Source: Nannobrachium achirus (lineage: Eukaryota; Chordata; Actinopteri; Myctophiformes; Myctophidae). From it: DNA of 64,000 bases. The notes beneath the pieces are model-generated. The model ran no database searches and was not told where the DNA came from. It worked only from the letters and a program-made list of their open reading frames with translations. The stretch lies in assembly GCA_963921795.1 (NCBI GenBank), contig OY997642.1, positions 26,008,192 to 26,072,191 on the forward strand. Direction: 5' to 3'. Below, in pieces: positions 722 through 64,000 of the stretch. How positions within the stretch are numbered: the first letter of the stretch is position 1; each line of letters starts with the position of its first letter. Both the position numbers and the translations under genes were made by a program.

Positions 722-776
722 AAATAGTAGGCCTACAAGCTCTGTGACGCGTTGTGAGCTTGTAGAGCTGCTGTTT
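722..776. repeat. shared hairpin cassette copy
   Basis: Arms AAATAGTAGGCCTACAAGCT / AGCTTGTAGAGCTGCTGTTT; the centre is shortened. Confidence 0.65.
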
Positions 777-867
777 CGGAAGAGCCGATGTATAAAACCA
801 GGTTAAACGCCACTTTGAGAAGCCTGTGCTGCAGACTGCATAAGGTGTAGGGAGTGACACAATTAGG

Positions 868-1062
868 ACAGTACATAAGGTATCAGGTGTGACACAAGGC
901 TTATAGACAGTACATAAGGTATCAGGTGTGACACAAGGCTTATAGACAGTACATTAGGTATCAGGTGTGACACAAGGCTTATAGACAGTACATAAGGTAT
1001 CAGGTGTGACACAAGGCTTATAGACAGTACATAAGGTATCGGTTGTGACACAGTGCTTATAG
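868..1062. repeat. 39-bp minisatellite, five units
   Basis: The unit begins ACAGTACATAAGGTATCAGG and ends ...CTTATAG. Five near-identical copies are followed by a partial one. Because 39 is a multiple of 3, an antisense ORF with a 13-residue repeat runs through it, which I do not regard as a gene. Confidence 0.9.
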
Positions 1063-1409
1063 ACAGTAGGGCATTAACGACTTGTGACAAAACCCGACAA
1101 TTCACCCTTTGTCAGCCTTCTGATTGGTCCCTGAACCAGCAGGCTCTTTCTGCCTTGTCCTGCCCTGGTTCCGCCTTGTTTATGTTGCTAAAACATCATA
1201 TTTGGAGAAATAAACACATTTAAAAACATGCCCAGGCACTATACTGAACCTGAGAGGCTCCTTTTTTTTTACTGAAACAAGTTTAAAATGAGAATTATTG
1301 AATACACAAAATAACAATAAGAAGCAACTGGTAGTGGATGGAGAGAAAGGACTGTTGTCCCACCAAGACACAGCAACCAATGGGTGAATGATGGTCCACT
1401 CACTGTTTC

Positions 1410-1840
1410 AAAATATAATAAAATAACAGTTGGGGGCAGAGCATTCACACATCGTGCCCCCTGTCTCTGGAATGCTCTCCCTCGAGCTGTCAGAGATGCC
1501 GACACTATGGCCATTTTTAAATCTAGGCTAAAAACCCATGTTTTCCTCAATGTTCAAACTCCCTACTTTCTTTTCTTTTTCTTTCCTTTCTCCTTTTTCT
1601 CCCTTTCTCACTGACCTGCACAGTTGCAGCTGACACATTTTATGACACATTTTATTACCTTTGTTGTTTTGCTATTGATATTTTTGTTGTACGATTATTT
1701 TTATAAATAATGTTTTTTGCTGTTTTGTACTCGACTTGTTGTATTGTCGTGAATGTTTTTGCTGTTTTATGACTTTGTTGTGAAGTGCACAGAGACCCTT
1801 TGGGGTGATATAAATAAAAATAAACTGAAACTTAAACTTG
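1410..1840 (+). mobile_element. LINE (L2/CR1-like) 3' fragment
   Basis: The frame around 1435-1560 encodes GGRAFTHRAPCLWNALPRAV...FKSRLKTHVF, the recognisable C-terminal end of L2-like ORF2 (xRLWNxLPxxIR...FKxxLKTHLF). An AT-rich 3' UTR ends with TAAATAAAAATAAA. It is 5'-truncated. Confidence 0.65.
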
Positions 1841-3265
1841 GCTTATTAACCAGGGATCCTTTTAAGCCCTGTTATAGCTATACTTTGTAGTTTAATTTAG
1901 TTTAATTGATTGAATACTTCTTGAATTCTTGAATGCTATTAACACGGTTGTTAACAGTACAGATGGTGCAGTCAAAAGTGAAGCTAAAGGGATAACGCAG
2001 GTGCAGGTGCTTGTTTCTCTCAGTTAATTAAGACATAGAATATACATAGCCTCCATGCATACAATACATAACACTCTGTAGGCTACTGACAAAATGTGAC
2101 AAAAACACATCAACAGCAGGCTGAAAGGGATTAACAAAACCGTTTAGCTTTTGTAACCAAAAACGTTTAGCTTTTGTGACACGTTAATGAGGACGTCACA
2201 ATCAGTGTCAGGCCTGTTCTATTTCAGGAGGAGTCTAAAGGCCATGAGGCGGTTTCCATAGCTTCTATCATTCACAGTTTGCCACACAGTTGAACCCTAT
2301 TTATGCCAATTTACCAGTGCCAATTATGCTTCTAATTAGAGGGAGTTTATGCATAAACCCCACCAAGCCAAAAGGAACATTTATCCTATTTGAAGAATAA
2401 CGTCGGTTTCACCCCCTGCCCCCGAAAAAAGCTTTCTTCCCCCGGCTTATCCAGAACTGCTTTTGTTATATTGAGTGCCACTTCTGTAACATTACCTTTA
2501 TTAAAAATAAACTTTCATGAACTTTATTATTATTGATTATTATTGAATGTGTATGAGTGTATGTGTAACAATAGATAACATATATTTTGTAACGGTTTGT
2601 GATAATTACAAAAACGCACATGGAAAACGAAGCAGGACACGTGAGTCTCGCCCGCCTCAGCTGTAATCAGCTGTCAGTCAGATCCTTTCCTGTTCCTCAT
2701 TCACAGATCTGCCATTAATTACATCACACATCACACTGTCATACTCCAGTCAGCTCAGTAAGGGAGGCGCCTTTAAATACGGCTTGCATTCACTATAGCT
2801 CTGCTTGTCTTGGATCCGAAGCTTCGCATCCACTGCTGCTTAGCTGCCCCCAGCCTCCACCTTTTGATCAGAGTCTGACATACTGCTGATTTTATGTCTG
2901 CGGATTCAAGCCAATATGTCAATGTATTGCTATTGTACTACTATTGTATCCCTATGGGGGGGGGTTGCTTAGCGTTCCCTGATTTTGCATAGCAATCTAC
3001 TTGAACAAAGTTCATGGGTTGCACACAAACGTTTGAGCAGTGGTGCTCAAAGTGGGGTTCAAGGACCTCCAGTGGTCCTTGACGGGGTTCCAGGAGGGAC
3101 CCCAGCTAAATGTTTCACATACCGGTAGTAGGAACCAAATGCGCCCTGACTGGCAGTACTGTAACACTGAGAGTGAACGTACACTCTCAGAGTTATGGAG
3201 GTACATGGCCCAAATGGATACCAAACTGAAGGTCCTTGAAATTAAACATTTTGATTACCACTATA
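1841..3265. other. intergenic, nothing recognised
   Basis: AT-rich non-coding sequence with no supported gene or repeat boundary. Confidence 0.5.
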
Positions 3266-3273
3266 CTTTACGG

Positions 3274-3677
3274 CAGTGGTTCTCAACCTGTGGGTCGGGA
3301 CCCCCAGGGGGCCCCCAAATTATTTTGGGGGGTCCCCAGATGATTAACTTAATGTGCAACATTGTTTTCTCAGTCAACAGTAAACAAATGAACATACACT
3401 CTAAGTGTATAGAGGGTATATGCACACTTCTAAAGTGACAATTTAAGGACTTTTTAATGCCTCTAAAATGACAAATTAAACATTGGCCAAATTGTCAAAT
3501 ATTAGAGGCAGCAATTGTGAAAATAGCAGATCTACATGCTCACAGCGAGGCGTTCGCAATAGAACCGTGTTATACAAAATATAATGCCTCAACTCTTAGT
3601 GCTGGTCAGGATGGGGGGTCCCCAGTTAAAATATGATTATTTTGGGGGTCACGGCCAGAAAAGGTTGAGGACCACTG
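3274..3677. mobile_element. hAT-type MITE with perfect 8-bp TSD
   Basis: Terminal inverted repeats are CAGTGGTTCTCAACCT and its complement AGGTTGAGGACCACTG. The flanks carry the identical 8-bp duplication CTTTACGG (3266-3273 and 3678-3685). At 404 bp with no coding capacity it must be mobilised by a hAT transposase in trans. A truncated copy of the shared hairpin lies at 3517-3560. It is the same family as 57041-57659, which is in inverse orientation. Confidence 0.9.
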
Positions 3678-61820: not shown

Positions 61821-62985
61821 GGCCAAGCACTTAAATCAAGTCTTTGGGCTCCAACAGAAGGCCAGGTCGCTCATGCAGGGTCACTCATGCCGGCGTACAC
61901 ACAGCACTAAGTACTGTAAAGCTGCTGTACGAGGACACAGTGGAACAAAGGATCATATGGTATTGGTTTCCAATAGGAAAAGACAAGCCACAGCATTACT
62001 CACTGCATGCGCCAGCGAGCTTCTCAGCTCCCAAGCTTAATCTTCATTAGTTCAACCTTTGATGTGTGGGGTTGAGAGGAGAGTCCCACAGTGCTTTGAT
62101 AGCTCTCTCGTCAGCTTCTCCACACCGTGTCCACATGAGAGTTGTTTCATTTGCGTAATGGAGTTGGTTTGCTTTATGCCTGTACTTTCTCATGACAAAG
62201 TTGTGAAGGAAGTGGGAACAATCAAATTAACTCGCATGAAGACTTACTGATCTGTTTCGCAATGCAGGCATTGGCATTCATAACCTTTTCTAGCACATGA
62301 ATTCATACCAAAGCTGGACAAATCCCTCCGAACTGCAGCTTTTAAAACACATGACCTTTGAGTGATTACACAATTTACATGTTGCATGAACAATGCTTCG
62401 TTCCTTGCTAGACTGGAATTCACTTCACAGTGTTACTTGTTAGCTGGTCAATTGCGAATGTTATGCTGGTAAAAGAGAAAAGAGACAGAATTAGTCCAGA
62501 AGTCCAGAATCTGGCAGTAAATTGAGTTAACAGCCTTCAACCAGGCGTCCCTATTTTGAGCATGAGCAAATCTATGTTCAAATCCTTTAAAACATTACAA
62601 GCTCACAACTTGATGTGAGTTCATCATACAACAAAGTATATAGGGCTTTAGTGGTTAATAAATTATTATAACATATTGTTTCTGTGCTAATAGTTTGATT
62701 AAGTTATTGCACAGCGCATTGAAGCTTAGCTGCTCTCCGTCGTTCCTGACAACACTGCAATTAGATTTTGTCACAAGATTGCGTTTCAACGGAGGAAAAA
62801 AGTGGACAAATAGGCAGAAGAGAAAATAAATAGGGAACGGAAACAGAAAAAAAGGAGGACAGAAAAAGCAGCAAGGAAAAACAACCCTGTGGGAGAAAAA
62901 CACCTTGCCGTGTGTGAGGGCTAAACATGTGATGGCTTTCTTCAGCGACACATGCCGTAACACAAGTGATCATTTCCAAGCAACC

Positions 62986-63187
62986 TTAAAGGCCCAGTTC
63001 ACCTCTGGGACAACCAGATCTTATTTTATTGTTGTTTGGGACAAGATCAACACAATCCTGAGTTATTTTTTGTGTTCAATCTGTGTTTTGAGATATTTTA
63101 GTATTTCAGCATGAATGATGATGCATTTTGCATCATAGCATCATGCTGCATCATATGATGCAAAATGCAGGTGAACTGGGCCTTTAA
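62986..63187. mobile_element. TTAA-flanked foldback MITE, shorter copy
   Basis: It begins TTAAAGGCCCAGTTCACCTC, shares the CTGGGACAACCAGATCTTATTT block with 9212-9540, and ends AGGTGAACTGGGCCTTTAA. The outer arms still match, but most of the right arm is deleted. Outer bases that differ from the first copy are matched on the other arm. Confidence 0.75.
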
Positions 63188-63400
63188 GCACACTGGTGTT
63201 GTCATCATCGACTTGTCTACAATGTGCAATTCACTTGTTTACTTGAGTGGTCTTCTTGAGGCAGTGACAGGACGGAGCAGACCGCCTTGCTTAGGCCCGC
63301 GTGACTTGATTTATTTGTGGAAACACAAGTTGAAGATGACGTCTAGTGTATTGGTACATTTGTATGAAAGGAGGGAGGGGGGAATTGCAAGACACGGAAT

Positions 63401-63529
63401 TGTGTGTGTGTGTGTGTGTGTGTGTGTGTGTGTGTGTGTGTGTGTGTGTGTGTGTGTGTGTGTGTGTGTGTGTGTGTGTGTGTGTGTGTGTGTGTGTGTG
63501 TGTGTGTGTGTGTGGGGGGGGGGGGGGGT
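63401..63529. repeat. (TG)n microsatellite plus G run
   Basis: About 56 GT units, then about 15 Gs. Confidence 0.97.
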
Positions 63530-63645
63530 AGCTGCCACTGGTGGTGAGGGGGTCAAAATATCATGTTTGTTGTCCTGGGGTCTGCCAGACCAAGCGAGTG
63601 AGAGAGAAAAATGGGGAGGGGGTTGCATTGAGAAAGAGTCTTGAG

Positions 63646-63680
63646 AAAGCGAGAGAGAGAGAGAGAGAGAGAGAGAGAGG
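63646..63680. repeat. (GA)n microsatellite
   Basis: About 16 GA units in a purine-rich strand that continues to 63800. Confidence 0.9.
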
Positions 63681-63963
63681 GGGAGAAAAAGAGTGGGATG
63701 ACAGAGAGCGATAGATAAGAAGATAGACAAATGGAGCGTCCAGAGAAGTGAGTGAGTGATCCGGCAAGATGAAGGCAGAGGAAGCATGGAGGATGGAACA
63801 AAAAGAAGACTTGATGAGTAATGTTTAACCACATAAAGCCTTACTTATATCGTTGCTGTTGTCAGGCAGAAACCCTTACTTACCTCTTACTTTCTATGTT
63901 TTTTTGTTGTTGTTGTAAATTAATGTCCTATTTTGTTATACTACAGCGTCAAACAAAAGTAGT

Positions 63964-64000
63964 AAAAAATAGCCAATCTCCAAGCTCGCATTTTGAGCTT
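63964..64000. repeat. shared hairpin cassette, cut by the window end
   Basis: AAAAAATAGCCAATCTCCAAG then CTCGCATTTTGAGCTT; it continues beyond the window. Confidence 0.5.

Follow-up and report, generated by a model that had tools for sequence, protein, structure and literature searches.

A hairpin of 60–90 bases, with inverted arms of up to 43 nt in the window (the whole 64,000-nucleotide stretch of Nannobrachium achirus DNA analyzed here), occurs in hAT-type elements whose ends are of six kinds. Probably it is the core, and best-preserved part, of an old module inside non-autonomous hAT elements, amplified as a passenger by hAT transposition.

The arm AATAGCAGATCTACAAGCTC has 30 matches in the 64-kb window at three mismatches or fewer and none in 100 dinucleotide shuffles. 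About 25 copies had been claimed in the original prediction, and a profile search recovers 23 of the 25 at E < 0.01, a partly circular figure, as the profile was built from 10 window copies and then run on the 25 listed sites; the shuffle test is not circular. The exceptions are the site at 13868, a doubtful remnant (13866–13911, E = 0.53), and the half-deleted copy at 58141, which has no profile match. The genome search that had been called for found the exact 20-mer arm 134,293 times (67,315 + 66,978) in the 1.66-Gb genome and its reversed control nowhere; shuffles and reversed control together rule out a chance origin. Extrapolation from 200 kb (loci L011–L030 only) gives about 600,000 hairpins genome-wide, an estimate made without the eight loci (L003–L010) that were chosen for an exact arm and are included in the 104-hairpin sample used below. 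The arm has no match among viral contigs, and the best hairpin none among phage records; a 19-mer has two matches in GTDB genomes, where a rough estimate of the chance expectation is 3–4 in 257 Gb.

The five predicted elements with perfect 8-bp target duplications all exist: an F1-type hAT MITE at 3274–3677 (plus strand; terminal inverted repeat CAGTGGTTCTCAACC, duplication CTTTACGG), an F2-type element at 6145–6685 (plus; CAGGGGTGTCAC, duplication TTTCCCAA), an F3-type MITE at 30713–31135 (plus; TAGGGCTGTCACRATT, duplication CTGCTCTG), a further F2-type element at 56437–56909 (minus; duplication CACAGCAG) and an F4-type MITE at 58009–58420 (minus; ends CACGGGTGTTCAAC and CAGGGGTCTTCAAC, duplication GATTACAG). 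Truly different terminal repeats around the hairpin are borne out, with four types among the five elements; those at 6145 and 56437 are copies of a single family, which carries two hairpins per copy. The single hairpin of the F3 element, at 30840–30922 (hairpins are given without strand), is the best in the window, built of two 40-nt arms and a 3-nt loop, 98% complementary, with a single A/C difference between the arms at core position 5 and a fold of −71.1 kcal/mol (z −16). The F1 hairpin at 3517–3587 (F1 variant, ACATGC arm; profile E 7e-13) has lost its right arm; a second F1 copy at 57035–57654 (minus strand, 86–90% to 3279–3683) holds another F1 variant at 57368–57432, seen as an inverted-repeat pair and a profile match. 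In the first F2 element, the hairpin at 6233–6294 has a decayed left arm (E 1.5e-10), and that at 6561–6639 is supported by inverted repeat, profile match and fold; in the second, the left arm is again decayed at 56468–56530 (E 2.7e-9), and the hairpin at 56762–56824 (inverted repeat, profile match) has a shortened loop. A partial F2 copy at 23785–24096 (plus) contains one more F2 variant at 24001–24075 (inverted repeat, profile match). The F4 element encloses a TTAA-bounded interior at 58097–58256, in which a large internal deletion has left a hairpin remnant, recognized by sequence, at 58140–58172.

Elsewhere in the window, an F5 variant (CAGC ... GCACACAAC on both arms) lies in an F5-like interior at 32808–32896, identified, like the hairpins at 50836–50919 and 54261–54332 and a diverged one at 717–781, by inverted repeat and profile match; those at 4751–4826 and 61745–61821 are supported by the fold as well. 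Profile matches alone mark an F2-like hairpin at 59379–59457 (E 1.5e-15), diverged hairpins at 12645–12721 (E 5.6e-9), 27614–27679 (E 3e-5) and 43767–43853 (E 1.3e-8), and one arm of a hairpin at 54771–54825 (E 5e-5). Single arms remain at 47381–47432 (F3-like, E 1e-4) and 5421–5461 (weak, E 0.0013), and a weak match at 63962–64000 (E 0.0034) is interrupted by the window end. The hairpin at 10188–10261, found by the profile, belongs to a bridging locus (W10) whose flanks match both F8 and F5 interiors.

A scan for exact 8-bp target duplications next to the end motif C/T-A-G-n-G, which we take to mark short terminal inverted repeats of the hAT type, found 16 elements in 264 kb, 10 of them with the hairpin, and none in 20 shuffles. 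At 6 of 36 places, the F5 terminal repeat has an F5-type hairpin no more than 1 kb away, compared with 0.5 expected. No transposase-bearing hAT element with F1–F6 or F8 ends and the hairpin was seen in 20 of 150 scored transposase matches, which were examined as 3.2-kb pieces, possibly short of the element ends, and belong mostly to other hAT families. One F4-type end among these pieces, in L039, lies outside the part common to the relatives of that locus. An element at L029:7339–8466 has ends in common with a transposase-bearing element of L031, which has no hairpin inside.

The suggestion of a hairpin that moves by itself, with a preference for MITE centers, is not supported. Once every hairpin is masked and pairs that overlap are set aside, the flanks of 84 of the 104 sampled hairpins recur around another sampled hairpin, the other 20 lacking a flank partner within the sample, and hairpin variants track flank groups. 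Similarity between hairpins is 0.655 within flank groups vs 0.522 between them (0 of 10,000 permutations), measured on 54 of the 104 hairpins after scores below 35, singletons and duplicates were dropped; ordinary BLAST of the flanks gave no cross-family pair below E 0.1. The search for empty sites that had been proposed found the predicted F3 empty site in 1 of 49 shortened copies and the F5 site in 7 of the 100 listed, and most shortened hairpins of both families have the appearance of later deletions. In F3 and F5, a TA stands on either side of the palindrome; F1 and F4 have no TA pair. Insertion of the hairpin at TA did not prove general, judging from the F3 count, the lack of TA pairs in F1 and F4, and the F5 class of exact empty sites, which is explained by microhomology, being the class of deletion in which this is longest (4 nt).

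These observations also bear on the idea that the hairpin is a once-mobile palindromic MITE, made of two fused terminal repeats with a TA target as in MADE1, which entered each hAT MITE once, in the distant past, and is now dead. The TA on either side in F3 and F5 and the seven F5 copies equal to an empty site would agree with such an origin, as would the MADE1-like size and form and the symmetric family variants, which are natural for terminal repeats. We nevertheless consider it unlikely, given the nearly absent F3 empty site, the microhomology of the exact F5 class, the missing TA pairs of F1 and F4, and tips that vary among families around a conserved inner core, the opposite of what terminal repeats would lead one to expect. 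Repeated capture of the hairpin by hAT MITEs comes nearer to the data than mobility; yet in some families the shared stretch exceeds the hairpin, and ends and interiors look exchanged. One locus, L006, has F5 ends around an F4-like interior, and at window locus 10180 F8-like and F5-like flanks are joined, so that, judged from the sequences, interiors and ends look shuffled among families. Descent of all hosts from a single ancient hAT family in which the hairpin was present throughout, its ends having since diverged, would account for hAT-like ends with 8-bp duplications in every case and for interior flanks common to F5, F8 and the 10180 locus. Its simple form, named in the original prediction as a refuting case, does not fit the differing ends, and the pieces described above yielded no transposase-bearing element that ends in this way. 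Since F5 and L006 combine the same ends with two different interiors, whereas F4 and L006 combine a similar interior with two ends, exchange is needed and descent alone is insufficient; we judge common descent quite improbable.

Still less probable is the idea of the hairpin as a piggyBac-like (TTAA) MITE that inserted into hAT MITEs. At three loci, the hairpin is surrounded by an interior of 167–204 bp with TTAA-CCACTTGAACC inverted ends, which recur in other F4-type interiors (on one side only in L006), and other AT-only words yield 0–2 pairs. However, the TTAA test is passed by 6 of the 104 hairpins, of which three are the near-identical neighboring loci L003–L005, whose ends look hAT-like, and the F1, F2, F3 and F5 copies fail it. 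Insertion at TTAA likewise did not prove general, such ends bounding the F4-type interior in three loci and not seen in the other families. A longer F8 copy (L016), considered as an autonomous remnant, was rejected, its extra piece looking by eye like another TTAA-bounded insertion.

The two arms of the stem vary in step. Hairpin variants follow families, and at many positions a difference from one family to another affects both arms, while F5 keeps one A/C mismatch. Family-level arm agreement in the outer zone is 0.525 vs 0.348 (0 of 5000 shuffles; 36 of 45 copies, rows of unequal length dropped), and a shuffle of arms within families gives 0.524 (p 0.49), with no sign of ongoing correction there. 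At two dimorphic stem positions, the arms match each other in 70 of the 71 loci listed, and genome-wide, 385 mixed TT/AT loci stand beside 50,900 palindromes. Independent symmetric changes number as many as the founders, perhaps ten or so, rather than the loci. The A/C mismatch at core position 5 is kept in 13,597 of 17,176 (79%) F5-type palindromes genome-wide, and the identical mismatch four bases inward, at position 9, in 129; among AT-type palindromes, it is kept in 13,044 of 23,933. The mismatch is not universal: F2 retains arm differences elsewhere, at positions 9 and 19, and F1 has none at position 5 in the two copies readable on both arms. Taken as a sequence pattern, the stem fits best with a position-specific pairing constraint. 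Arm-to-arm copying in the master elements, by quasi-palindrome template switching or gene conversion, could also keep the palindrome without any function; template-switching events are described as extending identity between the arms of imperfect inverted repeats (PMC3820800). Outside the core, the palindrome is extended by some 5–10 nt in a manner peculiar to each family, and the mismatch occurs in both orientations among F5 and F8 copies, as such copying would allow. Against it, the mismatched position 5 lies between core positions 1 and 17, at which the derived states of F5 are present in both arms; one copied tract would erase the mismatch, and at least two separate tracts would be needed. 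With no ongoing correction within families either, copying is a possible but rather doubtful explanation. Divergence is lower in the hairpin than in the flanks (7.9% vs 15.0%; 68 of 86 non-independent pairs, from copies picked by hairpin, with F9 and pairs with short alignments omitted), but F8 reverses the trend (hairpin lower in 0 of 3 pairs).

Folding is stable, as a microRNA precursor would require, with z from −7.9 to −17.1 in six of seven folds, one copy having been folded in both orientations; the seventh fold, of the damaged F1 copy, has z −1.7. No curated RNA family reaches its gathering score in the window, and the best family for 30780–30980 is MIR2600 at 52.9 bits vs a cut-off of 98, a level that a perfect hairpin may reach.

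Tol2, a hAT element of fish, contains an internal inverted repeat, a palindromic repeat related to the separate foldback repeats known as Angel. The likeness, a palindromic repeat inside a fish hAT element, is one of form; the hairpin here differs in being common to several hAT families. MADE1, a human mariner MITE of two 37-bp Hsmar1 terminal repeats and the source of miR-548, is outlined as an 80-bp near-perfect palindrome forming a stable hairpin, as here; but MADE1 is the MITE itself, whereas the present hairpin is internal to hAT elements, with no empty site of its own demonstrated (PMC1784062). In MER6/MER6A, a V-SINE piece sits in a mariner MITE of hundreds of copies, likewise a foreign conserved domain spread as passenger of a DNA transposon MITE, in contrast to a hairpin, six hAT end types and hundreds of thousands of copies here (PMC6887750). 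For the European anchovy, with 24 chromosomes, 44.5% GC and a 1.4-Gb assembly (1.66 Gb here), the available portion of the genome report gives DNA transposons as the dominant repeats and hAT as about 39% of them, and describes no hairpin shared among hAT elements (PMC13403563). Nor is a hairpin common to hAT MITEs described among the literature matches listed, a weak negative covering titles and abstract beginnings, with Repbase, Dfam and most subscription journals outside its scope.

For the passenger module, we envisage a few chimeric master elements whose interiors were combined through recombination or nested insertion; hAT transposases would have multiplied these masters, the hairpin traveling along without movement of its own. 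Because the arms change together between families while the F5 mismatch is kept, elements with a paired stem appear to be mainly those that were amplified, in which case the hairpin, as DNA or RNA, would be useful to the element; it might, for instance, form a cruciform or stem that binds protein and promotes transposition or reduces silencing. From its sequence pattern, the hairpin may thus have some role in its host elements. More tentatively, it could be a selected cis component, specific in both sequence and structure and with a designated mismatch, passed among non-autonomous hAT elements with unrelated ends and boosting their multiplication, that is, a transferable module for amplification or escape from silencing. 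What lets some non-coding MITEs reach huge numbers is a long-standing question, and here one structured module in differently ended hAT MITEs offers roughly half a million natural variants in one genome. Its co-varying stem and kept mismatch make the idea that internal structure drives MITE amplification directly testable.

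The original prediction of a recurrent hairpin arm is borne out by 30 matches (≤3 mismatches) within the window versus 0 in 100 shuffles, and a profile built from 10 copies recovered 23 of the 25 predicted sites at E<0.01. Across the whole assembly of 1,658,514,493 bases, the exact 20-mer arm occurs 134,293 times, and the reversed arm pattern, used as a control, has 0 matches. The profile identified 74 hairpins in twenty 10-kb regions chosen by position (L011–L030), which extrapolates to ~600,000 copies; since duplicates are present in some of these regions, we place the genome total at about half a million. 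Where both arms are present, a copy forms a single long stem, and that at 30838–30924 folds at −71 kcal/mol (z −16). Three of the twenty regions contain kilobase-scale duplications, recognised by identical or near-identical hairpins 3–5 kb apart (L028, 2570 and 5619; L022, 3402 and 7019; L016, 1199 and 6423). One 19-mer arm match in each of two prokaryote contigs, a Francisellaceae bin (L001) and Paenibacillus tyrfis (L002), is at chance level. The European anchovy genome, as described in PMC13403563, resembles this one in GC and hAT abundance; its published assembly comprises 1.4 Gb in 24 chromosomes. Should the window come from that species, the MITEs described here may account for much of its reported DNA-transposon expansion.

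Perfect 8-bp target site duplications, also predicted, were confirmed for five window elements of four terminal inverted repeat (TIR) types, each with hairpins or a remnant. A hairpin-blind scan of 264 kb (the window plus the 20 regions) found exact 8-bp duplications around 16 hAT-like elements, whereas 20 shuffles gave no such element; the hairpin is present in 10 of the 16, with six TIR types. In a looser search, a hAT-like end pair surrounds 21 of 104 hairpins sampled from the window and fetched loci, versus 15 of 300 random places. The host families, defined by TIR, are F1 (CAGTGGTTCTCAACC), F2 (CAGGGGTGTCAC, with two hairpins), F3 (TAGGGCTGTCAC), F4 (CAGGGGTCTTCAAC), F5 (CAGGGGTTTTCAAA/CAGGGGTTCCCAAA), F6 (TAGGGATGGGACGATA) and F8 (CAGGGGTGGGCAAC); F6 and F8 are weaker because the F6 duplication has one mismatch and F8 is based on one end, so far without a demonstrated duplication. 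The sixth TIR type of the scan is CAGAGCCCTGC, in L029. The 31-base F5 end has 5,553 exact copies in the genome. An F8 MITE in L016 holds a ~680-bp TTAA-bounded piece (6735–7415), read by eye, with inverted ends TTAACTC...GTGCC.

A mobile hairpin had also been proposed, as one of two alternatives; our results do not support its being INDEPENDENTLY mobile, as its variants track flank groups and exact empty sites are rare in F3 and F5. With every hairpin masked, the flanks of 84 of the 104 sampled hairpins recur around another, non-overlapping hairpin (83 once long near-identical duplicates are excluded). Hairpin sequence follows these flank groups, with a similarity of 0.655 within versus 0.522 between groups (54 hairpins; 0/10,000 permutations). 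The F5-type hairpin lies near F5 ends at 6 of 36 places versus 0.5 expected; among 15 F5 ends in the first 2.83 Mb, the F5 (AA) arm type, named by the letters at two dimorphic stem positions, is found within 1 kb in 2, and the TT or AT type in 0. A mobile hairpin would be expected to leave exact empty sites. The search for shortened copies, covering only 0–30 base gaps between exact flanks, returned 272 for F5 (control 2) and 49 for F3 (control 0). Among 100 F5 copies listed, 55 are simple full-hairpin deletions with varied breakpoints and 7 fall in the exact empty-site class, which is also the longest microhomology class (4 nt); the predicted TA empty site occurs in 1 of the 49 F3 copies. In these two families, then, the shortened copies look derived. 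The hairpin may still have inserted before the host families expanded.

MITE interiors look exchanged at individual loci. L006, fetched for its exact arm, has F5 ends (81% over the outermost 73 and 84 bases), and 56 hairpin-adjoining bases match an F4 module at 80–82%. At three loci this module is delimited by inverted ends of TTAA and CCACTTGAACC; such ends turn up again in further interiors of the F4 type and, in L006, on one side. At window locus 10180, the hairpin-adjoining bases match F8 (28/32), and those farther out, on both sides, match F5 (z 10.9, 7.2 and 8.7; 190 pairs tested, 150 shuffles each). F3 also scores in this test, 6.3 with 10180 and 6.0 with F6. Plain BLAST of the flanks gave no cross-family pair below E 0.1, so the demonstrated links to other interiors do not extend to F1 and F2. 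hAT elements also nest in one another in this genome: at L031 (~312–2352), an element with a transposase match and no hairpin inside is inserted within an F1 hairpin MITE, and L029:7339–8466 has the ends of this inserted element plus a hairpin.

The two arms of the stem agree more with each other than with the partners of other copies. Across the 36 copies whose two arms could both be read, own-partner agreement is 0.525 versus 0.348 in the outer zone, 0.880 versus 0.855 in the core and 0.750 versus 0.620 in the inner zone, each matched by ≤1/5,000 shuffles. This advantage disappears when arms are shuffled within families, which argues that the arms changed together in family founders and not in each copy. 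A genome-wide search that left two positions in each arm free found 50,900 palindromes; these positions agree across arms in 70 of the 71 distinct loci listed, versus 33.5% expected from frequencies. A TT arm stands opposite an AT arm at 385 loci genome-wide. From hairpin divergence, we estimate that later mutation alone could yield some hundreds of such loci, so that, judged by its count, this mixed type would seem to have undergone no amplification.

The main rival to the idea that pairing promotes amplification is template switching, as described in PMC3820800, and core position 5 (GC[A/C]GATC), where the arms frequently differ, bears on it. In F5-type palindromes whose arms both show the derived state at core positions 1 and 17, A stands opposite C at position 5 in 13,597 of 17,176; the same difference at position 9 on this background numbers 129. 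The arms differ at position 5 in 13,044 of 23,933 AT-type palindromes and in 15 of 36 local copies. F2 has instead retained arm differences at position 9 and position 19, and two F1 copies are matched at position 5, which makes the mismatch characteristic of particular families rather than universal. A single copying tract over positions 1–17 would erase it. Two separate arm-to-arm tracts could explain its retention; more simply, stem positions would have changed one at a time while pairing was required, a single site being exempt or intended to stay unpaired.

The window holds other features. On the minus strand, an element that we classify as a DIRS-type retroelement (17044–23432) has reading frames that contain reverse transcriptase and the N-terminal domain of a phage integrase; these are flanked by inverted repeats at 17293–17481 and 23241–23432 (94%). 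A JCAD-like gene (33731–39415; 1,894-aa open frame, JCAD match E 3e-88) contains a 51-bp tandem repeat of ~30 units at 35126–36628, encoding S-M-S-S-R-rich repeats. Further inverted repeats, missed by the hairpin profile, at 60489–60611, 29254–29371, 9211–9540 and 62985–63169 are probably other foldback elements.

An RNA role for the hairpin is possible by analogy with MADE1, where extracts of PMC1784062 describe such palindromes as able to become microRNAs; no Rfam family reaches its own cut-off for the hairpin. The hairpin module would be an old interior part of hAT MITEs that passed among them via nested insertion or recombination and multiplied as their passenger, its stem staying paired in those lineages that multiplied. 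The case for passenger status and interior exchange rests on the flank, empty-site and interior results, and pairing, we infer, promotes amplification.
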